This document shows, in pieces, positions 1-21,002 of a stretch of 21,944 nucleotides of DNA. The position numbers were made by a program, and so were the translations under genes. This DNA is from a virus, in the IMG/VR virus record IMGVR_UViG_3300017788_000204, positions 1 to 21,944 of that record. One strand, 5' to 3'. How positions within the stretch are numbered: position 1 is the stretch's first letter; each line of letters begins with the position of its first letter. Below the pieces are notes generated by a model that had not been told where the DNA came from, did not search any database, and was given only the letters and a program-made list of their open reading frames with translations.

Positions 1-77
1 ATTTGACTGTTCTTACCACCTTGCGATGATTTTTTGTTTACAGTGTCTAATTTTACATTACCAATTTGTCTAGCCAT
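1..77 (-). CDS. Small conserved phage protein, N-terminus only (partial)
   Basis: The first 25 codons of a minus-strand gene that runs off the left edge of the window. It begins MARQIGNVKL and is rich in Lys, Ser, Gln and Gly, suggesting a small basic protein. The ATG at 77 is preceded by an AAAGG Shine-Dalgarno sequence and, further upstream, by a GATAAATA late promoter box at 103-110, so both transcription and translation starts are supported. No function can be assigned from this fragment. Confidence 0.7.
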   Translation of the reverse strand, partial: MARQIGNVKLDTVNKKSSQGGKNSQ

Positions 78-101
78 AATATACACCTTTCTATGCGTAT
101 A

Positions 102-458
102 TTATTTATCAAACATAAATTCAAATCCTAAAACAAATCCCGGGTTCAGATCGTTTCTGCTTTTTTCAGCAGTGGGTGATAGAAAGATTGCAGTGTTATC
201 TTGAATTTGATATATGATCCTACCGTATGGAATTACAGGACTGAAACTGTCATATCCTGTAACAATACCGGCTTCTACGGAAATTTTGTCAGTTAAATTT
301 TCTATTAATCCAAAATATACGCTGGTATTTTGAATGCTGTTGTAATAGATACCTGTTGCTATGTAAGAATTTTCCAATCGGACATGCGGATGAATTTCGT
401 TGTAATCCCCTGCCAGTCCTAAATGTGTAGATATTGCTAGTCCAAATAGTAGATCCAT
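102..458 (-). CDS. Small outer-membrane beta-barrel-like protein
   Basis: A 118-residue protein with alternating short hydrophobic/polar strands and many aromatic residues (patterns GIYYNS, SVYFGLI, VEAGIVTGYD, PYGRIIY, GFVLGFEFMF), as expected of a small outer-membrane beta-barrel. The N-terminus (MDLLFGLAIS) is hydrophobic but is not a clean signal peptide. I chose the ATG at 458 rather than the TTG at 521: the TTG directly abuts the T-tract of the porin terminator, whereas the ATG has AGGGG five bases upstream and a perfect TATAAATA late promoter at 473-480. It follows the porin gene, so two envelope-type genes are adjacent. Similar short barrels occur in other T4-like phages as hypothetical proteins; a lipid-A-modifying enzyme is possible but no catalytic motif was identified. 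The envelope role is inferred from the strand pattern. Confidence 0.7.
   Translation of the reverse strand: MDLLFGLAISTHLGLAGDYNEIHPHVRLENSYIATGIYYNSIQNTSVYFGLIENLTDKISVEAGIVTGYDSFSPVIPYGRIIYQIQDNTAIFLSPTAEKSRNDLNPGFVLGFEFMFDK
103..110 (-). promoter_or_regulatory. T4-like late promoter box GATAAATA
   Basis: The minus strand reads GATAAATA, matching the NATAAATA late-promoter octamer of T4-like marine phages. It overlaps the end of the upstream gene (codons GAT AAA TAA) and lies 25 nt before the ATG at 77, leaving room for a short leader with the AAAGG ribosome-binding site. Confidence 0.7.
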
Positions 459-472
459 CAATGCCCCTGTAA

Positions 473-480
473 TATTTATA
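473..480 (-). promoter_or_regulatory. T4-like late promoter box TATAAATA
   Basis: A perfect match to the T4 late promoter sequence TATAAATA on the minus strand. It lies 14 nt before the ATG at 458 and downstream of the porin terminator, so it provides a separate late transcript for the small barrel gene. Confidence 0.8.
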
Positions 481-521
481 GGAGCAGAGTTAAAGAAATG
501 TTTGTGTTTTACTGAATCCAA

Positions 522-546
522 TAAAAAAGGGCCCGAAGGCCCTTAA
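522..546 (-). terminator. Rho-independent terminator after the porin gene
   Basis: On the minus strand AAGGGCC-TTCG-GGCCCTT is followed by further T residues. The 7-bp GC-rich stem has a very stable UUCG tetraloop (stem arms 538-544 and 527-533). It lies about 30 nt after the porin stop codon and separates it from the late gene downstream. Confidence 0.9.
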
Positions 547-575
547 TTGTGTTAGAATTTACTTTATTCAGTAAA

Positions 576-1400
576 TCAAAACTTGAATGTAATTCCGGCA
601 CCCATAGTTGTTGCTTCTGAATTCATGTTGTAAGCACCTTCACCGTAAAGGTCAAAACCATTCCAGTTATAGCTTACACCAGCACCAACATTTTGGAATG
701 CATCTGCATTATCGCCGTTAACAAAACCAGTTACAATACCATAACCAGCACTTGCTTCATAGGCAATAGTTTCAGTAGCAGCAGCATAAGTTACAATACC
801 ACCAAGGCTAATGTTGCCCGGAAGTGCCATTGTAGCCTTACCACCTAGAGTGAACTCCTCTGAAGTCATGTTGTAATCAACTACACCAGTAAGTGAGCCT
901 GAACCTAGATCCATAGTAGCAGCACCTTGTAGATTTGATACATCAGTAATATCTTCAGTTACATCAGTAAGACCAACCATCACGCTTGCGAAGTTAGTTT
1001 CAACAATAAGTGACTCGTTGCCACCTGCAGGATTAGCAATAGTATCGCCACCAACAATATTAAAATCGTTGCCTACAAAAAGATCACCTTGGTCACCGAA
1101 TGAAACGGTAGCAAAACCAACTCTAGTTCCGATCATCCAGCCGTCAAGTTCAAATTCACCGTCGACTGCTTCTACAGAGATACTGCCAAAAGCAAGACCT
1201 TCTGCTTCAATACCAGCACCAAGTGTGGTAGCAGCAACCCAATCACCGGCTGAGTTTTCAGTTGCTTCCACGTTGATAGAACCGCTTATAACAGGACCAC
1301 GCGGACCCATAACACGCGGATCACTAACAGTAGCATCTCCAGCAAACGCAGCACTGGAAATGAAAAGAGCAGTTACGCCACTAAAAATAGTTGTTTTCAT
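576..1400 (-). CDS. Porin-like outer-membrane protein
   Basis: A 274-residue protein with a classical Sec signal peptide (residues 1 to about 20, MKTT then a hydrophobic core, ending AFA before GDAT). The mature part consists of Gly-rich alternating beta strands and ends in Phe (sequence ITFKF), the C-terminal signature recognised by the BAM outer-membrane insertion machinery. This fits a small general porin of the alphaproteobacterial kind. The ATG at 1400 has an AAAGGA ribosome-binding site. A sigma70-like promoter lies at 1433-1460 and a strong terminator follows, so it can be expressed as a single-gene unit, possibly early. A phage-encoded porin could replace a down-regulated host channel, aid nutrient uptake or alter receptor display; these roles are inferences. 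Substrate specificity cannot be read from the sequence. Confidence 0.85.
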   Translation of the reverse strand: MKTTIFSGVTALFISSAAFAGDATVSDPRVMGPRGPVISGSINVEATENSAGDWVAATTLGAGIEAEGLAFGSISVEAVDGEFELDGWMIGTRVGFATVSFGDQGDLFVGNDFNIVGGDTIANPAGGNESLIVETNFASVMVGLTDVTEDITDVSNLQGAATMDLGSGSLTGVVDYNMTSEEFTLGGKATMALPGNISLGGIVTYAAATETIAYEASAGYGIVTGFVNGDNADAFQNVGAGVSYNWNGFDLYGEGAYNMNSEATTMGAGITFKF

Positions 1401-1432
1401 ATGTTAAAATCCTTTTCTGTTTAACAATACTA

Positions 1433-1460
1433 ATTATGCTATAACTCTACGTAAAATCAA
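1433..1460 (-). promoter_or_regulatory. Sigma70-like promoter for the porin gene
   Basis: The minus strand shows a -35 TTGATT (1460-1455), a 16-nt spacer and a -10 CATAAT (1438-1433), about 33 nt before the porin ATG. The -35 element lies inside a nested inverted repeat (1443-1490), which suggests regulation by a protein or by RNA structure. Confidence 0.5.
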
Positions 1461-1490
1461 TCATTTAGATGGTTTTTACAAGATAGAGTT
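1443..1490. repeat. Nested inverted repeat overlapping the porin promoter
   Basis: Arms AACTCTA (1443-1449) and TAGAGTT (1484-1490) enclose inner arms GTAAAA (1451-1456) and TTTTAC (1474-1479). The inner arm overlaps the predicted -35 box, so the repeat could be an operator. It could also form an RNA hairpin in readthrough transcripts from the tmRNA/microprotein unit upstream. Confidence 0.5.
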
Positions 1491-1496
1491 AGAAAG

Positions 1497-1514
1497 TGTT
1501 GCATTTAAGCAACA
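1497..1514 (-). terminator. Weak hairpin after the microprotein ORFs
   Basis: TGTTGC-TTAAAT-GCAACA forms a 6-bp stem just past the stop of the 32-residue ORF, followed by CTTTCT rather than a clean T run. It is at best a weak terminator for the tmRNA/microprotein transcript. Confidence 0.35.
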
Positions 1515-1516
1515 GA

Positions 1517-1615
1517 TTATTGACACAAATCTTCGTAGCGAGTTGTGTAGATTCTATGCTTGCTTAAATCAGCAACCGTGACAATTTTAAAGAGATTTAC
1601 AATTTTCTGTATCAT
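1517..1615 (-). CDS. 32-residue ORF coupled to the Cys-rich microprotein
   Basis: A 32-codon ORF, beginning MIQKIVNLF and ending YTTRYEDLCQ, whose ATG lies one base after the TGA of the preceding microprotein ORF (TGACATG), an arrangement typical of translational coupling. The peptide mixes a hydrophobic N-terminal half with a charged, Arg/Tyr-containing C-terminal half and has no recognisable domain. A GGA about 9 nt upstream, inside the preceding ORF, could act as a ribosome-binding site. The weak hairpin at 1497-1514 follows its stop. It is a possible real small gene, supported by position rather than by homology. Confidence 0.4.
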   Translation of the reverse strand: MIQKIVNLFKIVTVADLSKHRIYTTRYEDLCQ

Positions 1616-1616
1616 G

Positions 1617-1694
1617 TCAGCATCCACATGTTTTTTTACAATAGCACCAACATTGTGTTAGTTTTTCTTTTATCCAGCACCAACATATTTTCAT
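1617..1694 (-). CDS. Cysteine-rich 25-residue microprotein
   Basis: A 25-codon ORF starting at the ATG at 1694, preceded at a good distance by AGGAG (about 1705-1709). Seven of 25 residues are cysteine, in clusters CWCW (residues 4-7), CWCYC (15-19) and CGC (23-25), with a Lys/Glu-rich middle. An 11-base direct repeat (ATGTTGGTGCT, 1676-1686 and 1643-1653 on the minus strand), 33 nt apart and in frame, encodes the two CWC clusters and suggests internal duplication. The Cys spacing looks suited to metal binding or disulfide formation. It lies immediately downstream of the tmRNA tag region and probably shares its transcript. No family recognised; function unknown. Confidence 0.5.
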   Translation of the reverse strand: MKICWCWIKEKLTQCWCYCKKTCGC

Positions 1695-1715
1695 AGTGTT
1701 TCTCCTGTGTGTGAG

Positions 1716-1940
1716 TAGGTCCGTTCTGTTGCCCGGTGGAACCCATACCGCGTAGACTCATGCTGCGAGTGCTACAGGTGCAAAATTTGAATTTGCATTC
1801 GTTAAGTTGGCATATACGCTGCCAGCCGGTAAACTCCACTCTATCTTCACACCTGTCGATCCCATTTCATCCCCGAAATTGTAGTTATGGTGGAGATGTC
1901 GGCTTCGAAGCCGAGTCCAGAATGTGTCCACGTTGCTTCA
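1716..1940 (-). ncRNA. ssrA: Circularly permuted (two-piece) tmRNA gene
   Basis: tmRNA rescues ribosomes stalled on broken messages by adding a degradation tag. In minus-strand order the gene shows the acceptor piece first: a T-arm (UCGGC-UUCGAA-GCCGA), then CATCTCC and encoded ACCA ending at 1888; a 13-nt intervening segment; then the coding piece starting GGGGATG (1874-1868) and the tmRNA signature GGGATCGACAGG. GGGGATG pairs with CATCTCC over 7 bp, including the G3-U70 wobble that alanyl-tRNA synthetase recognises. A pseudoknot-like stem (UGGCA/UGCCA) precedes the tag ORF, which reads ANSNFAPVALAA then TGA (1796-1758), with the usual -ALAA end. This 3'-half-first order is that of alphaproteobacterial two-piece tmRNA. 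A hairpin using GGTTC/GGACC (1743-1718) follows the tag. The outer ends given are approximate. It has its own sigma70-like promoter. The T-loop looks one base short. Confidence 0.92.
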
Positions 1941-1954
1941 ACGTTTACAATACA

Positions 1955-1983
1955 TATTTAGCACAAATAAAGTATCTTGTCAA
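1955..1983 (-). promoter_or_regulatory. Sigma70-like promoter for the tmRNA gene
   Basis: A perfect -35 TTGACA (1983-1978) is followed by 17 nt and a weak -10 TAAATA (1960-1955). The -35 overlaps the stop codon of the preceding gene. Transcription would start near 1948, just before the acceptor piece of the tmRNA. Confidence 0.6.
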
Positions 1984-2513
1984 GTGTTTTTGGGACGCTT
2001 TTTCATAACACCAACAATAAAATTTGGGGGTATTGCTTTTTTCAATCTAAATTCTGACATTTGATAATACTCATAATCGGGGCGATTAGATTGTTTCCAT
2101 TTAATATATTCATCTCGAGATGATAGATGTTTTCGAGCCGATCCAATATTTCCCGACAACTGCGGATCCATGTTTGATTTTAACCAATCAATAGGTATTC
2201 GCATTTTGATAACCGATCTATCTTCGTCGGGTACATGCACTGGTCTTGCGCCAGCTGCCCTAAACTGTGCTTCGCCGCCAGCACCAGACATTGCAGCATA
2301 TCCATGTGCAGTGAAAGGATCACTGGTTACACTGATCATTCCTGTTTTAGGATCTGGACGATTTAATCCATTTTTTAACACATCGTTGACATTTCTATCA
2401 TGTGTTCCATGATATACTATAACTTGATTTTGATCTTCCCACCAACCAATATTGGGATTGTTTTCAAATGGAATTAAACCTACATTTTCATTTAAAAGAT
2501 CTGATATGCGCAT
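1980..2513 (-). CDS. Putative ADP-ribosyltransferase-fold protein
   Basis: A 177-residue protein beginning MRISDLLNE, a start common among small structural or accessory proteins of T4-like phages. The body resembles the ADP-ribosyltransferase fold: VIVYHGT (catalytic-type His at 35), a Ser/Thr strand SVTSD (61-65) with Tyr 72 shortly after, and a late acidic residue in SEFRL (Glu 154), giving an H-Y-E arrangement. Characterised phage ART enzymes (T4 Alt, ModA, ModB) modify host RNA polymerase or translation proteins, but they use an R-S-E arrangement and are not close to this one. The target is unknown; a structural or tRNA-phosphotransferase-like role is also possible. The perfect late promoter lies only 7 nt before the ATG and there is no Shine-Dalgarno sequence, so the mRNA may be nearly leaderless. 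The tmRNA gene follows directly. Confidence 0.6.
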   Translation of the reverse strand: MRISDLLNENVGLIPFENNPNIGWWEDQNQVIVYHGTHDRNVNDVLKNGLNRPDPKTGMISVTSDPFTAHGYAAMSGAGGEAQFRAAGARPVHVPDEDRSVIKMRIPIDWLKSNMDPQLSGNIGSARKHLSSRDEYIKWKQSNRPDYEYYQMSEFRLKKAIPPNFIVGVMKKRPKNT

Positions 2514-2520
2514 AATGTAT

Positions 2521-2528
2521 TATTTATA
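2521..2528 (-). promoter_or_regulatory. T4-like late promoter box TATAAATA
   Basis: A perfect TATAAATA on the minus strand, 7 nt before the ATG at 2513. With the usual late-promoter geometry, transcription would begin about two bases before the start codon. Confidence 0.75.
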
Positions 2529-2537
2529 ATACTTTAC

Positions 2538-2819
2538 TTATTTGACTGAGATGTCAAAATACCAATTTTCAAATGCTTCCATTCTAATATAATCAAATGG
2601 AATTTTACAATAGCCATTGTTTCCTCAATTTTTTCCAAAACTGTTTTTAGCTATGAAATATCCGTCAATAATATCATATCCTACCAAAACTATAGCATGA
2701 TTGCCCCAAAGCCTTTTGAAATAACCGTCGGCACAACCTAATACGGTGTCTTCTGTGGCCTCTAAATGTCCTTTGACCATCCAAAACAGTCTATAGGCTT
2801 CTTTATATTGCAAATTCAT
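2538..2819 (-). pseudogene. Papain-like (C1) peptidase C-terminal fragment with in-frame TGA
   Basis: The frame encodes the C-terminal half of a papain-family fold. NHAIVLVGYD carries the catalytic-type His, and GYFIAKNSFGKN carries the catalytic-type Asn. The family continues KNSWGxxWGxxGY; here the Trp codon after KN is TGA (2627-2625), after which the same frame continues with the expected GNNGYCKIPFDYI and ends at a TAA at 2540-2538. Either the gene is broken by one TGG-to-TGA change, giving a 64-residue product, or the stop is read through to a 93-residue protein. The papain catalytic Cys region is absent, so even the readthrough product is unlikely to be an active protease. The ATG at 2819 lies 4 nt after an AATAAATA box, with no ribosome-binding site. 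Confidence 0.65.
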
Positions 2820-2823
2820 ACAA

Positions 2824-2831
2824 TATTTATT
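2824..2831 (-). promoter_or_regulatory. T4-like late promoter box AATAAATA
   Basis: AATAAATA on the minus strand fits NATAAATA and contains the TAA stop of the preceding gene. It is 4 nt from the ATG at 2819, so a transcript from it would be leaderless. Confidence 0.5.
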
Positions 2832-3030
2832 CTACTTCTACGTCAGGATCAACTTCTGTGTCAGGTTCTTTTTTGGTTTTTCGTTTGTTACCGTACGAAA
2901 ATGTAAATTCTATATTTTCACTGCGTTTATCAGGAGGGCATTTTGTTACAGTGTTACCTTTTTCTAAAAACTCTTTTACTAGTTGTTGTGTTTCGTCACT
3001 AAGTTTTCTACTCGGAGGATTCATACTCAT
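2827..3030 (-). CDS. Small conserved phage protein, unknown function
   Basis: A 67-residue hydrophilic protein. Residues 10-28 look helical (KLSDETQQLVKEFLEKGN), followed by TVTKCPPDKR and a tail that becomes very acidic (DPDVEVE). The KCPP segment resembles one seen in small uncharacterised proteins of marine T4-like phages. Two in-frame ATGs (codons 1 and 3) could serve as start. It follows the SWIM-domain gene by 9 nt and is probably co-transcribed with it from the sigma70-like promoter at 3290-3317. No function assigned. Confidence 0.65.
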   Translation of the reverse strand: MSMNPPSRKLSDETQQLVKEFLEKGNTVTKCPPDKRSENIEFTFSYGNKRKTKKEPDTEVDPDVEVE

Positions 3031-3039
3031 TTGTTTATC

Positions 3040-3252
3040 TTAATTGAACCTTTCTAATACTTGTGTACTGTGTTTGCATTTACCTTGAAACGTAAATCCT
3101 GTACAACTACAGGTAAATCCTTTTTCGGTAAGGGCAACTGTGTAAACGCTACCTTGCTTGCTACCTGGGACTGACCATTCAGTTCCTACTAGGGAATTAT
3201 TTTTAAAATTCCAATCTTCTAGTTTCAAGTAGCGTTTGCTGAACCGTTTCAC
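3040..3252 (-). CDS. SWIM zinc-finger protein
   Basis: A 70-residue protein with a CxC-x8-CxH arrangement near the C-terminus (Cys 48, Cys 50, Cys 59, His 61; CSCTGFTFQGKCKH). This matches the SWIM-type zinc finger, a small zinc-binding module used in DNA or protein contacts. The N-terminal part (LKLEDWNFKNNSLVGTEWSV) resembles that of similar small proteins in marine T4-like phages. The start is GTG at 3252, preceded by AAAGGTGGGG. A sigma70-like promoter (TTGACA, 16 nt, TATAGT) lies just upstream, suggesting early expression with the following 67-residue gene. The partner is unknown. Confidence 0.75.
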   Translation of the reverse strand: MKRFSKRYLKLEDWNFKNNSLVGTEWSVPGSKQGSVYTVALTEKGFTCSCTGFTFQGKCKHSTQVLERFN

Positions 3253-3289
3253 AGTTGCCCCACCTTTGCTTCGTTCACATCGTTTATTT

Positions 3290-3317
3290 ACTATACTATA
3301 GTTTATAAAGATGTCAA
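3290..3317 (-). promoter_or_regulatory. Sigma70-like promoter for the SWIM-domain operon
   Basis: A perfect -35 TTGACA (3317-3312), a 16-nt spacer and a -10 TATAGT (3295-3290, five of six matches). The -35 begins directly after the stop codon of the preceding gene. The leader to the GTG at 3252 would be about 30 nt. Confidence 0.65.
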
Positions 3318-3497
3318 CTACAAATCGTTCTTTTTTTCTTGTATTTCTCTTCTACGTTCAGTAGTGAGATGTTTCAAATCTTGTAAAGCTTTACGAGCTC
3401 GCGGGGCAGCAGCTTTGATGCCTTTTTTTTCAAACAATTCTATTTCTTTAAGATACACAGCAAAAGCAACCTTTAATTGCTCATGTGTATCAGTCAT
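3318..3497 (-). CDS. Small basic helical protein, unknown function
   Basis: A 59-residue protein, highly charged and predicted helical, with an Ala/Arg-rich centre (GIKAAAPRARKAL) and a Lys/Arg/Glu-rich C-terminus. I chose the ATG at 3497, which overlaps the end of the HAD gene (ATGACTGA) and has AAGG upstream, over the earlier ATG at 3521. Small basic proteins with this Ala/Arg motif occur in marine T4-like phages without assigned function; nucleic-acid binding is plausible from composition only. Confidence 0.65.
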   Translation of the reverse strand: MTDTHEQLKVAFAVYLKEIELFEKKGIKAAAPRARKALQDLKHLTTERRREIQEKKNDL

Positions 3498-4062
3498 CAA
3501 GAATAACCTTGCAAATTTCATTCCAAGTTTTAACTCTTACTACTGAGGAATTTTTGTAAAATTGATTGTGGGGATGATCGATTAGTATAGGACGCAAGCC
3601 TGCCCGCAACCCTGCTTCACAATTTTCCGGTTTATCTTCTATCCACCATAGACCTGTATCCTTGTATTCCGCCAGTGCATCGTCTTTATCTGCTCCAGTA
3701 TCAAGACAAATCAAGTTGTTCCAAGGATCCTTGCCAAAATGTTGTTCTAAATTCATTTGACGTAGTCTTTTTGCGTAAGGATCTGTGCTTAGACTTGTGA
3801 TTACGTCAAACTTATATCCAGCAGCATGTAATCTAGCAACGCCTTCTTGACTATCACGAAATGCTGGAAGACAACAGATCCATGCACTTTCGTTATATTC
3901 TCTTACTAAATTTAGTTTTTCTTCAGTGAGAATACCGTATACCTCTGCTAGGTTGTAGAGGCCGTGTTTGATCTTTTGATGTCCTTTAAGTGTCATCCAT
4001 TCATGAAAGGGTGTTTCCCAATCAAAGAGAACGCCGTCAGCGTCGGTTAATATTTTTTTCAT
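3490..4062 (-). CDS. HAD-superfamily phosphatase, 5'(3')-nucleotidase-like
   Basis: A 190-residue protein with the HAD catalytic motifs in order: TDADGVLFDW at the N-terminus (nucleophile and acid/base Asp 7 and Asp 9), ITSLS near residues 88-92 (motif II Thr/Ser), a Lys near 126 (motif III region), and WWIEDKPENC (acidic pair 142-143, motif IV). The DxDGV start and length fit the 5'(3')-deoxyribonucleotidase-like group, which dephosphorylates nucleoside monophosphates. Together with NrdAB and glutaredoxin upstream this suggests nucleotide-pool management, but the substrate is inferred. It starts 13 nt after the PAAR gene and overlaps the next gene by 8 nt, so it is part of the operon led by nrdB. 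Confidence 0.8.
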   Translation of the reverse strand: MKKILTDADGVLFDWETPFHEWMTLKGHQKIKHGLYNLAEVYGILTEEKLNLVREYNESAWICCLPAFRDSQEGVARLHAAGYKFDVITSLSTDPYAKRLRQMNLEQHFGKDPWNNLICLDTGADKDDALAEYKDTGLWWIEDKPENCEAGLRAGLRPILIDHPHNQFYKNSSVVRVKTWNEICKVILDD

Positions 4063-4075
4063 TTTATACCTATTG

Positions 4076-4375
4076 TTAGTCGCCTACAAATACTGTAGAC
4101 TGGTTAGTTACTACTGTTACTGCACCGCATACTCTCGAATCATTATTTCTATGAACTGGTTTATTGTAAACAAACACTGTAGATGATCCGGAGTTTGCAG
4201 CAGGATTGCAATGAGGTCCACCTACTGGGATGCACAACGAATCGGGGTTTGCAGGATCTACAACTTCTATAACTTCTATATTTTCTACAAACACAGTCCT
4301 AGGATTTTCTGCAATTAAATCTCCTCCACCGTGTGTGTTAGGATCACCTTCAACTGCCCACAATTCCCACGACAT
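4076..4375 (-). CDS. PAAR-domain tail-spike tip protein (T4 gp5.4-like)
   Basis: A 99-residue protein with repeats characteristic of PAAR proteins: RTVFVENI, SSTVFVYNKPVHRNNDS, and STVFVGD at the C-terminus, with GGPHCNP and VCG supplying Cys/His for metal binding. PAAR proteins form the sharp cone at the tip of the central spike in T4-like tails (gp5.4) and in type VI secretion. The ATG at 4375 has AAGGA upstream. It sits inside the nrdB-led operon between a small unknown gene and the HAD gene, so structural and metabolic genes are mixed. The spike role is inferred from the family. Confidence 0.8.
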   Translation of the reverse strand: MSWELWAVEGDPNTHGGGDLIAENPRTVFVENIEVIEVVDPANPDSLCIPVGGPHCNPAANSGSSTVFVYNKPVHRNNDSRVCGAVTVVTNQSTVFVGD

Positions 4376-6099: not shown

Positions 6100-8415
6100 T
6101 TATATTGTGCAACTTTCACAATAACCTTCATCTTCTTCTTTATGAAAACCATTGATTATTTGTACAGGTTCTTCTTTAATCATCTTGCTTAAATCAACTT
6201 CACCTGCACCGTCATTTGTATTGAAATAGTATAACTGTTTTCCGCCGTATTTGTAAAACATCAATATGTGCTGTAACATCACACTCATAGGAATTTTTTC
6301 ATCATCATAGAACACAGGATTATAACTGGTATTTACAGAGATGCCTTGATCAATATACTTTTGCAACACTGCCATAATTTTTAGGTAGCCTTCGGGAGAG
6401 CGTTGGTCCCACAATAAATCATAACGATTCTTAAGACGCTTGAAATCTGGCACAACTTGTTTTAGAACGCCGTGTTTGCTTTGTTTCACTGATATAAGAC
6501 TGCGTGGCGGCTCTACACCGTTGGTAGCATTTGCAATTTGTGCTGAAGTTTCGCTCGGCATAAGTGCCATTAGCGTACTGTTACGAATGCCTGTTTCACG
6601 CAACTGAGCGCGAAGACCTTGCCAATCTAATCTTTCTACGTGTGGTACAAGTTCGTCTACGTCACGTTTGTAGGTTTGGTTAGGTGTAATGCCGTTTCCA
6701 TACTTTGTCTCCATGTTGCCACTAGGTGCACCTTGTTCTGTTGCTAGATCAGCACTGGCTTTGATTAGATAGTAACTCCAAGCTTCGGCCCATTCGTCAA
6801 CTACCGCAAGTCCAGCAGCATCTATGTGTTGATAGGACAAGCCTTGTTTAGCCATCCAATAGGCAAAGTTAATAATACCAATGCCCAAAGGCCTGCGTTT
6901 TTCTGTACTGAGTCTTGCTGCAAGAACAGGATAATCTTGATAGGTTAACAATGCATCTAGTCCACGAACTGCTAAACGACATACACGTTCAAAGTCTGCA
7001 GGTGTACGAATATTTCCCCAATTGATAGCTGATAAAGAACAAAGGCTAATTTCTCCGTTAGGATCGTTTAAATCATTTAGAGGTTTAGTCGGCAAATCAA
7101 TTTCAGCACACAAATTGCTTTGTCTAATAGGAGCAACTTCAGGCAAGAAACTGCCGTGCTCATTTGCGTTGTCTACGTTCTGCAAATAGATACGACCTGT
7201 GCTCTTGCGTTCTTCCATAAAAGAACTAAAGAGATCAATTGCTTTTACAGTTTTTTTACGTATTTTATTATTGCGTTCTGCTGCTTCATACAGTTCTCTA
7301 AATCGTGCTTGATCGGCGAAGAATGCATCATACAAGCCCGGAACATCATTAGGAGAGAACAGTGTAATATTACCGCCAGTTATCAGTCTTTCATACATTA
7401 ACTTGTTAAATTGCACACCGTAATCCATATGACGTATGCGTGTTTCTTCAGTGCCTTTGTTGTTCTTTAAAACCAACAGTTCTTCGGCTTCTAAGTGCCA
7501 AATAGGATAATATACAGTAGCAGCGCCGCCACGAACACCGCCCTGGCTGCAACTTTTTACTGCTGCTTGAAACATTTTATAAAAAGGAATAATGCCTGTA
7601 TGATAGGCGTCGCCGTTTCTTACGGGAGAACCGATTGCTCGGATTTTACCGCCTCCAACACCAATTCCGGCTTTTTGACTAACATATTTAACGATACTGC
7701 TAGTAGTAGCATTAATACTGTCAAGGCTGTCATCAGATTCGATAAGGACGCAACTAGAAAACTGTCTCTGGGGAGTTCTAACACCAGCCATGACAGGAGT
7801 AGGAAGGCTAATATCGTGATTACTAATAGCGTCATAATAGTCCTTTATCCATTGCAGTCTAATTTCTTTTGGATATGCATGAAAAAGTGTAGCTGCTATT
7901 AGTATATAGCACATTTGTGGTGTTTCGAATATCTCGCCGGTAACTCTATTTTGAACTAGATACTTACCACGTAGCTGTTCCATTGCTACATAGGTAAGGC
8001 TTTCATCTCTTTCATGTTTAATAAATGAATTTATTTTATCCCATTCGTCGTTATCATAATAGGTAATCAGTTCAGGATCATAAAACCCTTTTTGTATATT
8101 TTGCTCAACAAGTGCTTTGACATGAAACGGTTCAAACTGGCTGTAAACTTCTTTTCTTAATGCATAATTGATTAGTCTACCGCCTACATATTGATAGTTT
8201 GGAGTGTCTTCTGAAATTAAATCAGCAGCGGCCTTGATTAGTGTTTCTTGGATCTCGCTGCTTTTAATTCCTGGATAAAATTGTATTTGACTTCGAATTT
8301 CTACCTCGCTTGGACTGACTCCTGTTATGCCTTGACATGCATGAAACACTACTTTGTGTAACTTTTCTATGTCGAGAGGCTCTTTCGTTCCGTTGCGTTT
8401 GGTAATTTGAATCAT
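6100..8415 (-). CDS. nrdA: Class Ia ribonucleotide reductase large subunit
   Basis: A 771-residue catalytic subunit converting ribonucleoside diphosphates to deoxy forms. The N-terminus (KRNGTKEPLDIEKLHK) starts an ATP-cone domain for allosteric control. Active-site residues are present: Cys 222 (FSSC), Asn 434/Cys 436/Glu 438 (SNLCAEI), Cys 459 (ISLCS), the radical-transfer pair Tyr 729/Tyr 730 (QLYYFN), and the C-terminal shuttle cysteines 766 and 769 (CESC). The length is close to the enterobacterial enzyme. The ATG at 8415 has AAAGGA upstream and an AATAAATA box further up. The enzyme should be functional and work with the nrdB and glutaredoxin genes that follow. It supplies dNTPs for phage DNA synthesis. 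Confidence 0.96.
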   Translation of the reverse strand: MIQITKRNGTKEPLDIEKLHKVVFHACQGITGVSPSEVEIRSQIQFYPGIKSSEIQETLIKAAADLISEDTPNYQYVGGRLINYALRKEVYSQFEPFHVKALVEQNIQKGFYDPELITYYDNDEWDKINSFIKHERDESLTYVAMEQLRGKYLVQNRVTGEIFETPQMCYILIAATLFHAYPKEIRLQWIKDYYDAISNHDISLPTPVMAGVRTPQRQFSSCVLIESDDSLDSINATTSSIVKYVSQKAGIGVGGGKIRAIGSPVRNGDAYHTGIIPFYKMFQAAVKSCSQGGVRGGAATVYYPIWHLEAEELLVLKNNKGTEETRIRHMDYGVQFNKLMYERLITGGNITLFSPNDVPGLYDAFFADQARFRELYEAAERNNKIRKKTVKAIDLFSSFMEERKSTGRIYLQNVDNANEHGSFLPEVAPIRQSNLCAEIDLPTKPLNDLNDPNGEISLCSLSAINWGNIRTPADFERVCRLAVRGLDALLTYQDYPVLAARLSTEKRRPLGIGIINFAYWMAKQGLSYQHIDAAGLAVVDEWAEAWSYYLIKASADLATEQGAPSGNMETKYGNGITPNQTYKRDVDELVPHVERLDWQGLRAQLRETGIRNSTLMALMPSETSAQIANATNGVEPPRSLISVKQSKHGVLKQVVPDFKRLKNRYDLLWDQRSPEGYLKIMAVLQKYIDQGISVNTSYNPVFYDDEKIPMSVMLQHILMFYKYGGKQLYYFNTNDGAGEVDLSKMIKEEPVQIINGFHKEEDEGYCESCTI

Positions 8416-8447
8416 TTTCTACGTCCTTTTCTTATTTTTTAAAAATT

Positions 8448-8455
8448 TATTTATT
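8448..8455 (-). promoter_or_regulatory. Possible late promoter box AATAAATA upstream of nrdA
   Basis: AATAAATA on the minus strand fits NATAAATA and includes the TAA stop of the preceding gene. It lies 32 nt before the nrdA ATG. A late promoter for nrdA is unexpected for a nucleotide-metabolism gene, so this may be a chance match in AT-rich sequence. Confidence 0.4.
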
Positions 8456-8876
8456 GAAGCGGGGGCATGTTGTACTTTATTTCGGATTGAAACGATCTAG
8501 GCAAATCTTTTACAAAAATAGCGTTGTCATATTCATACCCAATACAAAGTTCTCCAACTATACAAAGATATTTGGTGATTGAATTTTCTTTATCGTGTGT
8601 AATATGTATCTCGAAATGACAATTGGAAAACGTTGTAGTTAACTGTAAAGTATAACAAATTGCTAGAATTTTTATAAAATCACAATACACGTTGTTTTCT
8701 ATCAATTCCCAAGGGGTGGGCCAAGAATTCATGTCATAGGGATCTACTGCTATTTTAACAATAGGAGCTCTATTAAAAAATTTAATAGTGTCAGCTATTG
8801 GATCTTCAGACAGCTCGAGGCTATCTCTAAATGACTTCCAATCAGCCATCCTTTGTTCGAAAGGTTTAAAAAACAT
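8451..8876 (-). CDS. Conserved T4-like phage protein, unknown function
   Basis: A 141-residue protein with the segment VDPYDMNSWPTPWELIENN followed by a hydrophobic helix-like stretch (FIKILAICYTLQLT), a strand-rich C-terminal half (FEIHITHD), and the ending MPPLQ. This pattern is familiar from uncharacterised proteins beside tail-fibre genes in marine T4-like phages, suggesting a tail or baseplate-associated role by position only. It starts three bases after the fibre stop without a clear ribosome-binding site, so translation is probably coupled. Three cysteines fall in the middle. No enzymatic motif seen. Confidence 0.7.
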   Translation of the reverse strand: MFFKPFEQRMADWKSFRDSLELSEDPIADTIKFFNRAPIVKIAVDPYDMNSWPTPWELIENNVYCDFIKILAICYTLQLTTTFSNCHFEIHITHDKENSITKYLCIVGELCIGYEYDNAIFVKDLPRSFQSEIKYNMPPLQ

Positions 8877-8879
8877 ATT

Positions 8880-10496
8880 TTATGACTTGGTTTTTACTCT
8901 ATAATAAAAATCAGCATTGTCGCTTGTTGTAGAGTTTAACACCATTACTGCTACTGTGTCAACAGTTGCGTCGCCATTTTCGTCATAATTTTGTGCTTGA
9001 AATGTTAGATTTTCTTCAAATAAAGAATTACCAATATATTCATATTCGTCAACTAAAGTTTGTAGATTATTAGTAGGATCAACTACAATATGTAGTGTTC
9101 CTTTTCTTTTAGCATTTACTTGATTTGAGACATAAAGATACTCAACTTCTATGCCTTTAGTTCTATCTGCAGGTAGTTTGAAAAACTTAGTATAAGTTCC
9201 ATATTGTCCTAATTGTAATCTATAAGTATAATTGTTTTGATATATTGTTGGGCCTGCAACATCTGGAATATAAGGCACGTTAAGAATGTATAACGGGTCA
9301 CTACCTAGTTCTGCAGATCTTTCAAACCAATCGTTATCGCTCAAGTTATTGTTTGTTAAAAATTCTATTATAGGAACAATAGGATTAAGACTAGAGCCCC
9401 CGTCATTTCCTACAAGGTAAAATTTATTATTACTACTTTTGTTTGTTATACCGTTAGTAATCAAAATACCTTGTTTGTCTACGTCTCTAAATAAACTTTG
9501 CGAAATGATGTTTTTTGAAGGTCCTACCAATTGTCCGCTGTTGCCTAAGACAGTGTTTTCACCAAATGACACGCCTCTGCCCAAACTTTCAAAATTTGAA
9601 TTATTCCATGCATTATCGATTATATCAAAATCACTGTAAATGCCATAACTCATATTCTTAATAACAATTCTGTTAAACTGATTGTTTTTACAAGTTACAA
9701 CCGAACTTAGACTGTTTAGTAAAATACCTACATTGCTAGTATTCAGTGCATTACCGCTAGCCCAAGATCCTGTAATTGCAATATCTTCAAACACGCTGTC
9801 TCTGCAACTCTGTAGTCTAATAGCAGTTTGATTAGTTAAAGTTACACTAATTCCAGAAAGTCTAATATTTCTTGCTTGATTATTTGTAGTGCTAGTAGCG
9901 TCGCTAGAAATATTAGATGGTGTACTAGAACTGTTAATCGTTTGGAACAATGAGCCTGTTCCTGTAAATGTAATTTTTGTTTTTTCTATTCCAGCGCCTA
10001 CTATATTTGTGTAGGGTGGAAGATATAATGTACTGTTTACAACATAAGTACCTGGTTCTAACCAAAGTATAACTCTACTTTGCGGATTGTTTTTGTTAGC
10101 GTCATTTAAGAATAATTGGAATATTGCTCTTTGTAATGCAGCAGTTTGATTAGTGCCGTCGCCGTTTGCTCCGAAACTTCTTGCACTCACAATATCGTCT
10201 AGTCTAGCTTGTAAAGTTCGTTGTATTGGCGTATTTACAGTTGCACCTGTTTGGATATAACTTTCTGTGCTTCTGTAAGTATAGTCACTAGCATAGGCAA
10301 ATAAGTTATCGTGTTCAGTAAGAATTTTAGTATTGCCAACGTAAGGTGCACCTTCGCTTACACTACCGTTACCTATATATAAGGCTTGTGTGTCTAATGC
10401 CCAACCAAATTCTCCACTTGCTAACTGTGGTAATCCGGAACCTTGGTTTTCGCGACCCCTACGTATTTGTATGCGACTTATTGATACGACCGCCAC
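8880..10496 (-). CDS. Tail fibre / receptor-binding protein with beta-helix domain
   Basis: A 538-residue protein. The first ~70 residues (SISRIQIRRGRENQGSGLPQ, then ASGEFGWALDTQALYIGNG) form the attachment motif found at the start of many marine phage fibre and adhesin proteins. From about residue 100, ARSFGANGDGTNQTAALQRA begins a pectate-lyase-like right-handed beta-helix with repeated Asn/Ser/Ile-rich rungs, followed by a C-terminal strand-rich domain (about 420-538). It probably binds the host surface, perhaps with glycan-cleaving activity, though no catalytic residues are clear. The start is GTG at 10496 with AGGAG eight bases upstream and a CATAAATA late promoter at 10524-10531. Specificity is unknown. 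Confidence 0.85.
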   Translation of the reverse strand: MAVVSISRIQIRRGRENQGSGLPQLASGEFGWALDTQALYIGNGSVSEGAPYVGNTKILTEHDNLFAYASDYTYRSTESYIQTGATVNTPIQRTLQARLDDIVSARSFGANGDGTNQTAALQRAIFQLFLNDANKNNPQSRVILWLEPGTYVVNSTLYLPPYTNIVGAGIEKTKITFTGTGSLFQTINSSSTPSNISSDATSTTNNQARNIRLSGISVTLTNQTAIRLQSCRDSVFEDIAITGSWASGNALNTSNVGILLNSLSSVVTCKNNQFNRIVIKNMSYGIYSDFDIIDNAWNNSNFESLGRGVSFGENTVLGNSGQLVGPSKNIISQSLFRDVDKQGILITNGITNKSSNNKFYLVGNDGGSSLNPIVPIIEFLTNNNLSDNDWFERSAELGSDPLYILNVPYIPDVAGPTIYQNNYTYRLQLGQYGTYTKFFKLPADRTKGIEVEYLYVSNQVNAKRKGTLHIVVDPTNNLQTLVDEYEYIGNSLFEENLTFQAQNYDENGDATVDTVAVMVLNSTTSDNADFYYRVKTKS

Positions 10497-18104: not shown

Positions 18105-19091
18105 TTATTGTGCTAGACTAGCAATCAATGCTTGTGTTTCTGCTAGAGCAGGATCTGGCACTAGACCATACTGATCAAGTGGACCGCCAGGACCAGCAAT
18201 ATCATCACTCATAAAGAATGTAATAAATTCATGCAGTCCAGGAATAGCACCTACATGAGCATTCTTTACATAGAAGAACAGCGGACGGCTGATTGGATAC
18301 TCTCCACTTGCTACTGTTTCACTACTAGCAGTTACACCGTTGATAGTGGCAGCATACAATGTTTGTGTATTATTAAGCAGGAATGACAATCCAAACACGC
18401 CAATTCCAATCTTATTACCTTCCAGACGGGCTAGTGTTTCGGTATAGTCGCCGTCGATATCGATAGCAACATTATCAGAGCGAACCTTCATACACTCTGC
18501 TGACGCTGCTTTCTTATCACCGCCATTTTCCTTGAGGATAAGGTCATATGTTCCTACAACCTTGCAGCCTTCTTCCATAACCTTGATGTCAAACACTTCT
18601 CTCGTTCCGTGCTTGGTGCCAGGAATGTAAACAAGAATCTCACGATCAGGAAGTGAAGGATCTACTTGTTTCCAGTTGGTTACGTTTGATCTTGCGCTAA
18701 GTGCAAGATACATCTGTGCTGGAGTTAAGTTGTCAAAGCCTTTGTTTTCAAGACGGCTTGCAAAAACAATACCGTCGTAACCAATACGAATCTCAGTAAT
18801 TTCACCTATCACTGCTTCACACGCAGCCCACTCATCATCTTTCATTTTTGAACTGCTGTTGGCAATATCAACTGTGTTAGGACCAATGCCTTCACAGAGT
18901 TTTTTACGACCAGCACCAGAGCCACCACCTTCAACTACAGGTGTAGAGAAGTCAAAGTTTTCGCCAAATGCCTCAGCAACAATAGTTGCGTAGGGTAATA
19001 CTGTTGAACTGCCGGTAATGTGAACGTTGTCACGTGCGGCAACTTGTGTTGCGGCTAGAGCAAATGCCGCACCTATTATAAATGATTTCAT
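18105..19091 (-). CDS. pstS: Phosphate ABC transporter substrate-binding protein
   Basis: A 328-residue periplasmic phosphate-binding protein. A Sec signal peptide covers residues 1 to about 19 (MKSFIIGAAFALAA, cleavage after ..VAA). The mature part begins with the phosphate-site loop HITGSSTVLPY, followed by GGGSGAGRKKLCEG and DIANSSSKMKDDE, typical of PstS. It binds phosphate and delivers it to the host PstCAB importer; no other pst genes are present, so it must use the host transporter. Its ATG has a strong AAGGAG. It follows phoX across a 75-nt gap holding a perfect inverted repeat, and is closed by a strong terminator. Phage-borne pstS is established in marine cyanophages. Confidence 0.93.
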   Translation of the reverse strand: MKSFIIGAAFALAATQVAARDNVHITGSSTVLPYATIVAEAFGENFDFSTPVVEGGGSGAGRKKLCEGIGPNTVDIANSSSKMKDDEWAACEAVIGEITEIRIGYDGIVFASRLENKGFDNLTPAQMYLALSARSNVTNWKQVDPSLPDREILVYIPGTKHGTREVFDIKVMEEGCKVVGTYDLILKENGGDKKAASAECMKVRSDNVAIDIDGDYTETLARLEGNKIGIGVFGLSFLLNNTQTLYAATINGVTASSETVASGEYPISRPLFFYVKNAHVGAIPGLHEFITFFMSDDIAGPGGPLDQYGLVPDPALAETQALIASLAQ

Positions 19092-19166: not shown

Positions 19167-21002
19167 TTAACCTATAATACCGCCGTCATTACGAGTAACA
19201 GCAATCACACCACTTCTTGCTAAACCACCAAATGGCCATGTGCTGGGGTGTCCTTCTTCGCCAGGATGTTGAACACCTACAAACATAGTTTTGCGATCTG
19301 CACTCCATGTCAAGCCAGTAATCTCGCAAGCAACAGGTCCTACTAGGAATCTATGTATTTCACCAGTTTCGGTATTGCCTACTAACATTTGATTATTACC
19401 TTGGCCAGCAAAGTTTTTTTCGTTGCTGTAGTTGCCATCAGTTTGAATCCAAAGATTACCTAAACTATCAAACTTAATACCATCGGGGCTATTAAACATG
19501 TTGTCTGCTGTAACATTAGCACTACCTGCCATAGAATCTGAATGGACTGTTGGATTACCTGCTAGAACGTAAAGATCCCAAGCAAATGTATTTGCAGCAT
19601 GATCTTCATTAGTTGGGTTCCAGCGAAGTATGTGTCCATAAGGATTACCTGCTCGTGGGTTAGCAGCATCAACAGGTTGATTTTCTTTTTCGCCACGATT
19701 TCTGTTATTAGTTAAGGCCACATAAACTTCGGCCTTTTCTGGATGAGATGCTACCCATTCTGGACGATCCATTGTAGTTCCGCCTACTTTTGTAGCAGCA
19801 ATTCTAGCAAAAACAACAGTTTCGTCAGCAGCCATACCTGCATCGGCAAGATTTAACCATTCGCCTGTGCCGTCGTCGTTGAATTTAGCAACATACAAAT
19901 CTCCTTCATCTAACAGAGATGAATTGTCACCGCCTTCTACATACACGTTCTTAGAAACGAAACGGTATAACATCTCGCCTCTTTCGTCGTCGCCGCTGTA
20001 AACCACAGCACGACCGTCTTTATTAATGACAAGTTCTGCATTTTCATGCTTAAAACGTCCATGGGCAGTTAATTTTTTAGCATTACCAGTAGCAGGATCA
20101 ATTTCAACTATGTAGCCGTGACGATTGGTTTCGTTAGGCTCTTTGCTAAGGTCGAATCTGTCATCAGTTTTAATCCAGTTGTAACCCCAGTCAACATTAG
20201 CAATACCATAACGTTTCATTTCGTCAGTGCGAGGTGCTTCTTCCCCTAGGCTGTTGGCAAAATAACCATTGAAGTTTTCTTCACAAGTTAGATATGTTCC
20301 CCATGGAGTCATACCATTACCGCAGTTATTCCATGTTCCTTTTACAATTACACCTTCTGAATCTGTTGAGGTTTTTAGAAGATTACTACCTCTTGCAGGA
20401 CCAACCACTGCAATCTCAGTGTCGGGAGTAATGCGTCTGTTATAAACGCTGTCAAGCACAGGTGTCCATTTGCCGTCGTTGTTACCAATCTCTACAATAG
20501 TAATACCGTGTGCTGCTTTATTCTTGTTTACATCGTCATCTGTTACAGGCTTGCCTTCTTGATGAGCAAACATCAATTCTAAGTTAGTATATTCGTTATT
20601 AATAACAAGCAAGGTTTTGCCATTAACTTCAAACACATCCATACCGTCGTTGTTGTCACCCATAGTTACGGCTTGATCGGCTGCTGTAAAGTTTAGAGGA
20701 TCAAATGTTTTACCAGCACTTGTCAACGGGTCACCCCAGTTAATAACTGGATACCAACTATAACCTTCTGGTAATGTGATAGTATCAGCACTAGTAGCTG
20801 CTACAGGAGTAAAGTTTATTGCATTAAATGCACCGGCATTTGCTCTGCTGGTTAAAGCAGTTGTGCTAAGAAACGCACTGGTTCCAATAATAGCGCCCAC
20901 CCCGGTTAGAAAATATCTTCTTGAAATTACATTGTCTAGTTCTACAGTCTTGTTAGGATTTTGAATTTCATCCCATTCGTCGAAACTTATTCTGTCTTTC
21001 AT
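19167..21002 (-). CDS. phoX: PhoX-family alkaline phosphatase, Tat-exported
   Basis: A 611-residue PhoX-family (DUF839) phosphatase. The twin-arginine signal is SRRYFLTG (Arg 28, Arg 29), then a hydrophobic stretch and ANA before the mature part. Family motifs include WGTYLTCEENFNGYF, RPEWVASHPEKAEVYVALTN and NSPDGIKFDSLGNLWIQTDG. PhoX enzymes are Ca/Fe-dependent, fold in the cytoplasm and are exported by Tat to release phosphate from organic esters. Its length is in the normal range and no break is seen. The ATG has AAAGGA upstream. The gene sits behind a leader containing a tiny ORF and a terminator, suggesting conditional readthrough. With pstS it forms a scavenging pair. Cyanophage examples usually carry PhoA-type enzymes. 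Confidence 0.9.
   Translation of the reverse strand: MKDRISFDEWDEIQNPNKTVELDNVISRRYFLTGVGAIIGTSAFLSTTALTSRANAGAFNAINFTPVAATSADTITLPEGYSWYPVINWGDPLTSAGKTFDPLNFTAADQAVTMGDNNDGMDVFEVNGKTLLVINNEYTNLELMFAHQEGKPVTDDDVNKNKAAHGITIVEIGNNDGKWTPVLDSVYNRRITPDTEIAVVGPARGSNLLKTSTDSEGVIVKGTWNNCGNGMTPWGTYLTCEENFNGYFANSLGEEAPRTDEMKRYGIANVDWGYNWIKTDDRFDLSKEPNETNRHGYIVEIDPATGNAKKLTAHGRFKHENAELVINKDGRAVVYSGDDERGEMLYRFVSKNVYVEGGDNSSLLDEGDLYVAKFNDDGTGEWLNLADAGMAADETVVFARIAATKVGGTTMDRPEWVASHPEKAEVYVALTNNRNRGEKENQPVDAANPRAGNPYGHILRWNPTNEDHAANTFAWDLYVLAGNPTVHSDSMAGSANVTADNMFNSPDGIKFDSLGNLWIQTDGNYSNEKNFAGQGNNQMLVGNTETGEIHRFLVGPVACEITGLTWSADRKTMFVGVQHPGEEGHPSTWPFGGLARSGVIAVTRNDGGIIG

Follow-up and report, generated by a model that had tools for sequence, protein, structure and literature searches.

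A Permuted Alpha-Type tmRNA Gene in a Phage Genome Fragment and Its Viral Relatives

The locus and its surroundings

The stretch of DNA analyzed here (the window) is a 21,944-base virus fragment from IMG/VR. At positions 1714 to 1950 on its minus strand lies a permuted (two-piece) gene for tmRNA, which releases stalled ribosomes (Table 1). An Rfam scan of the whole window returned only two matches, both at this locus and on the minus strand: alpha_tmRNA RF01849 at 1987-1714 (85.7 bits, E = 3.1e-22) and tmRNA_permuted RF04321 at 1948-1758 (84.7 bits, E = 3e-15), well above the curated Rfam cutoffs of 50 and 47 bits, respectively. A first-pass annotation, made from the sequence alone, had called an alpha-type permuted tmRNA in a phage and proposed a covariance-model search as a check; these matches, amid T4-like phage genes, bear it out. 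Every element that it named, including the 13-nt intervening segment and the GGGGATG/CATCTCC pairing with G3-U70, was found, on the minus strand, which it had left unstated. Its range of 1716 to 1940 was right for the locus and slightly short on the 5′ side, where the P2 helix starts at 1948 and the promoter spans 1983 to 1955.

The neighbors are phage genes, as had been claimed: class I ribonucleotide reductase genes nrdA and nrdB, a phage exonuclease, a virion structural protein, and a DUF6267 protein that, among phages, matches those of cyanophages and marine viruses. The coding strand of the window has 11 copies of NATAAATA, the core of T4-type late promoters, and the opposite strand has 0. 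The source is a phage of the T4-like type, probably marine. No integrase was recognized among the window genes tested.

Elsewhere in the window, a PhoX alkaline phosphatase gene adjoins one for a PBP-type (PstS-like) binding protein; only two records in the phage collection matched PhoX, both labeled Acinetobacter phage, at 35 to 37% identity. The first sizeable gene past the tmRNA encodes a product that, by eye, has a signal peptide and is outer-membrane-barrel-like, with no Pfam match. Across phage tmRNA loci (L012, L013, L014, L021, L042, L047, L059, L064, L082, L094, L096, and L115), the product of the gene in this place is often of this kind, by eye, and in others it resembles a small gp33-type protein. 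Just past the tmRNA, a tiny Cys/Trp-rich open reading frame (ORF), MKICWCWIKEKLTQCWCYCKKTCGC, follows AGGAG; its counterpart in the sister phage L002 has one base fewer and extends to about 58 amino acids. Just upstream of the tmRNA, a 177-amino-acid ORF with no Pfam or PHROG match has a YHGT-like N terminus that resembles ADP-ribosyltransferases by eye.

Table 1. Features of the permuted tmRNA locus, other genes in the window, and features of the sister phage L002
Feature	Positions	Strand	Description	Basis
-35 box TTGACA (CTTGACA)	1983-1978	minus		sequence
-10/degenerate T4-late box TAAATA, within GCTAAATA	1960-1955	minus	17 nt past -35 box	sequence
Acceptor piece	about 1948-1888	minus	P2 5′ strand, T-arm, CAUCUCC, encoded CCA	RF01849/RF04321 alignment
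P2 5′ strand GUAAAC	1948-1943	minus	pairs with GUUUAC 1834-1829	
Intervening segment TAACTACAATTTC	1887-1875	minus	13 nt	sequence
Coding piece to tag stop	1874-1758	minus	GGGGAUG, D-loop, P2 3′ strand, tag ORF	Rfam alignments
P2 3′ strand GUUUAC	1834-1829	minus	in coding piece	
Tag ORF ANSNFAPVALAA, stop TGA	1796-1758	minus	GCA AAT TCA AAT TTT GCA CCT GTA GCA CTC GCA GCA TGA	translation, Rfam alignment
Terminal H-type pseudoknot	1750-1718	minus	after tag; S1 and S2	
Pseudoknot S1	CGGU 1750-1747/ACCG 1737-1734	minus		
Pseudoknot S2	GGUUC 1743-1739/GGACC 1722-1718	minus		
Cys/Trp-rich ORF	about 1694-1618	minus	just past tmRNA	
First sizeable gene past tmRNA	1400-576	minus	barrel-like	by eye
177-aa ORF	1980-2513	minus	just upstream of tmRNA	
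PBP-type (PstS-like) binding protein	18105-19091	minus	adjoins PhoX	
PhoX alkaline phosphatase	19167-21002	minus		E = 6e-167
NUMOD3-motif ORF	L002:8376-9041	plus	inserted in tmRNA gene; affected region 8267-9076	E = 3.4e-7
Alternative oxidase	L002:7501-8094	minus	between tmRNA region and porin-like gene	Pfam AOX, E = 1.3e-80

RNA structure and covariation

The acceptor piece ends at 1888 in CATCTCC-ACCA, with the CCA encoded. Across the spacer, 7 bp make up the acceptor stem: G-C, G-C, G-U (3:70), G-C, A-U, U-A, and G-C. The D-loop signature reads GGGATCGACAGG / GGGAUCGACAGG, and the tag ends in -AA, as membership among alpha-type permuted tmRNAs requires. The P2 pairing and the post-tag pseudoknot are elements additional to those annotated before. 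By analogy with known permuted tmRNAs, the 13-nt segment is expected to be removed from the transcript. Minimum-free-energy folding of the two pieces did not yield the full expected structure; simple folding can fall short for pseudoknotted RNA.

The one sign against the identification is that ARAGORN reported no tmRNA in the window. In L002, whose tmRNA gene is 95% identical and encodes the tag ANENRMPLAIAA, it does report one, as it does in L040 and L163, which have the UUCGAA T-loop of the window; L082 is missed. Because L002 and other relatives with an identical T-loop are reported, the failure on the window gene is probably a score-margin miss; the 6-nt T-loop was rejected as its reason, since L002, L040, and L163 are found despite sharing it.

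Viral relatives were gathered by exact sequence patterns. At least 119 viral stretches matched a window-like coding piece in these scans; a window-like T-arm was present in 53 and a host-like D-loop in 58. In all, permuted tmRNA-type genes occur in well over 200 stretches of viral DNA. The sampling patterns left acceptor positions 5:68 and 6:67 free or nearly so. In the 76 distinct viral permuted tmRNAs compared, these two pairs formed in 152 of 152 cases as AU, GC, CG, UA, GU, or UG, compared with a mean of 94.7 (maximum, 108) when partners were swapped; acceptor pairs 1 to 3 were set by the sampling pattern and carry no evidential weight. All five T-stem pairs likewise vary yet stay paired in the 76 genes. 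Pseudoknot stem 2, represented by 47 different strands among 67 distinct viral genes, reaches at least 6 bp in 58 of the 67, versus 14.8 (maximum, 22) with swapped partners. Because these stems covary across related viral genes, the structure of the viral permuted tmRNA gene family is under selection.

A promoter-like sequence with sigma70-type and T4-late features

The first-pass annotation also assigned the gene a promoter of its own, in agreement with a promoter-like TTGACA-N17-TAAATA in positions typical of related phage tmRNAs. The TTGAC motif lies mostly 96 to 99 nt upstream of the CCA end in related viral tmRNAs (96 nt in the window), and the TAAATA box of the window sits at the modal ATAAATA position of other phage tmRNAs. 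The region 60 to 90 nt upstream of the CCA end contains TATAAATA in 34, and NATAAATA in 40, of 76 viral genes whose upstream sequences differ, compared with 0.42% and 0.87%, respectively, of random windows from the same loci. Neither box stood at the tmRNA promoter place in any of 31 hosts. In a separately drawn viral sample, 34 of 55 had NATAAATA, whereas in a host set of larger size 0 of 88 did, both counted without de-duplication.

From these patterns, we infer that the phage tmRNA promoter is a hybrid, in which a sigma70 -35 box is followed by a box that would double as a -10 element and a T4-type late core. Such promoters, with the two elements paired at a fixed place, may be new; in the open-license literature, covered in part, we found phage tmRNA tied to neither late promoters nor homing endonucleases. 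The late core of the window, GCTAAATA, has two mismatches to TATAAATA, and because it is degenerate, the sigma70 reading is the safer one for this phage. A sigma70-type promoter suggests early expression, and the signature as a whole offers a testable prediction on when during infection phages need ribosome rescue.

A 6-nt T-loop that recurs in phages

In the T-arm of the window, UCGGC-UUCGAA-GCCGA, the loop is 6 nt long. The loops of sampled alphaproteobacteria have 7 nt and read GGCGGUA or GGCAGUA, types that are near-universal outside the Rhizobiaceae picked for a short loop. With any stem, UUCGAA occurred in 1 of 385 alphaproteobacterial genomes (G003), effectively 0 of 384 because G003 is a center picked for having this loop. 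Restricting the stem to GGC/GCC gave 53 viral versus 7 bacterial stretches, 5 of the latter being rhizobial ssrA genes. The loop is present in 4 of 99 members of the first viral sample and also in the one-piece phage tmRNAs L134, L150, and L165. The tree requires at least four origins for it. A UUCGAA T-loop nearly absent from bacteria and recurrent in phages may be a new observation.

Some details of these loci stand apart. A 12-base palindrome, GGCTTCGAAGCC, creates the 6-nt loop (window 1934-1888 and 53 viral stretches). The remaining two bacterial stretches (L171/L172) carry one and the same tmRNA and lie 150.7 kb from each other, surrounded by many tRNAs, on contig NVXB01000001.1 of NORP22, a Hyphomicrobiales metagenome-assembled genome (MAG). 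The contig is probably that of a phage with terminal redundancy, binned with the MAG. Three Rhizobiaceae, G003, G004, and G006 (L177/L184, L181/L186, and L179/L183), carry two tandem permuted tmRNA matches approximately 360 to 390 bases apart, the second scoring 84 to 96 bits versus 145 to 152 bits.

Origin of the gene and inference of the host

In trees built from a short alignment (about 146 columns) with hosts drawn from one class, the genes of the window, L002, and L082 cluster together with strong support inside a set of phage genes, and all three trees place the window tmRNA within a phage-only group and not nested among host genes. The nearest host lies 1.26 to 1.28 changes per column from the window gene, and the nearest phages lie at 0.02 to 0.4. 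A single split between phage and host versions of all permuted tmRNAs was rejected: the tree with a second viral sample needs 7 changes, versus 1 to 2 in the first sample, which was picked mainly by a window-like D-loop pattern. On account of these 7 changes, only the group of the window itself is claimed to be phage-only. Because other viral lineages interleave with hosts under different sampling, the trees imply either repeated acquisition of permuted tmRNA by phages overall or its exchange with hosts.

The tag ends in ALAA, like host tags, and is one residue off ANDNFAPVALAA, found in a sampled alphaproteobacterium, so that the earlier suggestion of a phage-specific degradation tag finds no support. 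It had also been proposed that the tmRNA points to the host group. That expectation did not hold up: the RNA belongs to a phage group apart from sampled host ssrA genes, and phage Melnitz combines an alpha-type tmRNA with a gammaproteobacterial host (PMC9004378). Judged by the phage-only placement, the host-like tag, and the Melnitz case, the gene is a weak guide to the phage host, and caution is warranted in inferring a phage host from its tmRNA. An alphaproteobacterial host for the window phage is plausible.

An invaded tmRNA gene in a sister phage

On either side of a region in which the tmRNA gene is replaced from the tag onward, phage L002 matches the window at approximately 95% identity. 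The replacement comprises the tag ANENRMPLAIAA, a new pseudoknot with compensating stems, and a T-run, after which comes an antisense ORF with a NUMOD3 motif. This motif is typical of homing endonucleases. The window-type 3′ end, now displaced, continues past the ORF from GCAACAGAACGGACC (L002 position 8299, window position 1732). Phage L096 has a tag and pseudoknot 82% identical, over 84 nt, to these new ones. The simplest account would be insertion with co-conversion, in which a replacement 3′ end came with the element and the tmRNA stayed whole. Its preservation suggests, indirectly, that loss of the gene is costly. A search for homing endonucleases beside other phage tmRNAs found an in-gene case only in L002, a single instance. 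A homing-endonuclease-type ORF that enters a tmRNA gene, swaps the tag, and rebuilds the 3′ end may be new, and it suggests that degradation tags could be exchanged between phages in one step. L002, a marine T4-like phage, also encodes an alternative oxidase, missing from the corresponding place in the window (Table 1).

Proposed function and alternatives

The observed gene, family covariation, promoter-like sequence, and phage-only placement lead us to propose, with a probability of roughly 0.75, that the window carries an intact phage alpha-type two-piece tmRNA with its own promoter that works with host machinery in ribosome recycling during lytic infection. Transcription, processing, charging, partners, and benefit are modeled on tmRNA families. 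Its own promoter would drive transcription of the gene, probably early through the sigma70 polymerase of the host and possibly a second time late. Host RNase P would generate the 5′ end of the coding piece, and other host tRNA-processing enzymes would act at the CCA and within the spacer, so that removal of the spacer would leave two base-paired RNAs. Host alanyl-tRNA synthetase would charge the tmRNA by way of G3-U70, A73, and CCA; dependence on host SmpB is expected because no smpB was recognized in the 22-kb fragment, and SmpB and EF-Tu of the host would bring the tmRNA to ribosomes stalled on broken messages. The nascent peptide would receive ANSNFAPVALAA and be passed to host ClpXP-type proteases. 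The phage would most likely benefit from ribosome recycling amid the mRNA breakdown of lytic infection; such recycling, suggested in the first-pass annotation, is plausible. The 6-nt T-loop, which deviates from the 7-nt host loop and may affect SmpB or EF-Tu binding, is a point against the proposal.

If the gene were a host ssrA captured recently and passively, through transduction or an imprecise excision event, it would be a mere marker of the host. The near-identity of its tag to a host tag fits this account, as do the short spacers (5 to 15 nt) of small-genome alphaproteobacteria; the phage-only group in three trees, the far longer path to hosts than to phages, the lack of a recognized integrase among the window genes tested, and a promoter and 6-nt UUCGAA loop unlike those of hosts (a recent capture should have the 7-nt type) make it highly improbable. 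A phage decoy, which would compete for SmpB or ribosomes with the tmRNA of the host and thereby block trans-translation, has a precedent in the tag-less form of phage DS6A, which inhibits endogenous tmRNA (PMC11915505), and the altered T-loop would suit it. The hallmark of the DS6A type is the absence of a tag ORF, whereas the window has an intact tag frame with an AA ending, recognized by a simple pattern in 111 of the 119 related viral genes listed, and the family pseudoknot covaries; because a decoy needs neither, we regard this role as very unlikely. It is also unlikely that the tagged peptides are mostly host proteins. The early expression suggested by the sigma70-type promoter would favor host targets, but the tag has no feature particular to host proteins, and late boxes are common in related phage genes, which suggests that expression extends to the stage when most of the proteins being made are those of the phage.

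Beyond the reading as a recycling tmRNA, we offer tentatively, at somewhat less than even odds, that phage permuted tmRNAs are a long-lived phage family marked by a hybrid promoter, a repeatedly evolved UUCGAA loop, and tag-exchanging homing endonucleases. If so, the hybrid sigma70/T4-late promoter would keep trans-translation going through the entire infection. The locus is a covariation-backed example of a phage-resident tmRNA lineage.

Comparison with known systems

The gene type is already known from many aquatic phages, and the window gene is a further case. A phage-borne permuted tmRNA with its own promoter, which the first-pass annotation had thought unusual, is in fact common in aquatic phages, given the well over 200 viral stretches found here and a published survey in which 53 of 133 unique phage tmRNA structures are two-piece forms, 50 of them marine or aquatic (PMC9004378). 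Another study lists 79 phage tmRNA sequences (PMC11915505). The literature found, which covers the field in part, mentions neither the late box at its fixed place, nor the recurrence of the 6-nt loop, nor the L002 invasion. A blastn search of 50,697 phage records with the window gene gave no match, and cultured-phage relatives were reached via L075 and L082.

Closest in setting are the OM43 phage Melnitz and the pelagiphage Mosig, marine myophages with permuted alpha-type tmRNA like that of the window; Melnitz also has no integrase and a promoter just upstream (PMC9004378). Both genomes have a glutamine riboswitch, linked to ssrA in Melnitz (PMC9004378), whereas window positions 1 to 4100 had no match to one at E ≤ 1. 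Among cultured phages of Rhodobacterales, reached via L075, roseophage DSS3_MAL1 has an annotated, permuted ssrA, with a 7-nt GGCGGTA T-loop and a much longer spacer than the window gene, and vB_RpoS-V10, DSS3P8, and RcXuper have unannotated permuted relatives. An unannotated locus of Sinorhizobium phage Phosso partially matches the tmRNA region of L082, the next-closest relative of the window tmRNA, at 76% identity over about 172 bases; Phosso is a 469-kb jumbo phage of a soil bacterium, unlike the window phage. Host alphaproteobacterial ssrA (RF01849) shares with the window gene the two-piece form, G3-U70, an ANDN...ALAA-type tag, and a post-tag pseudoknot, and differs from it in having a 7-nt GGCRGUA-type loop, no TATAAATA box, and a separate place in the tree.
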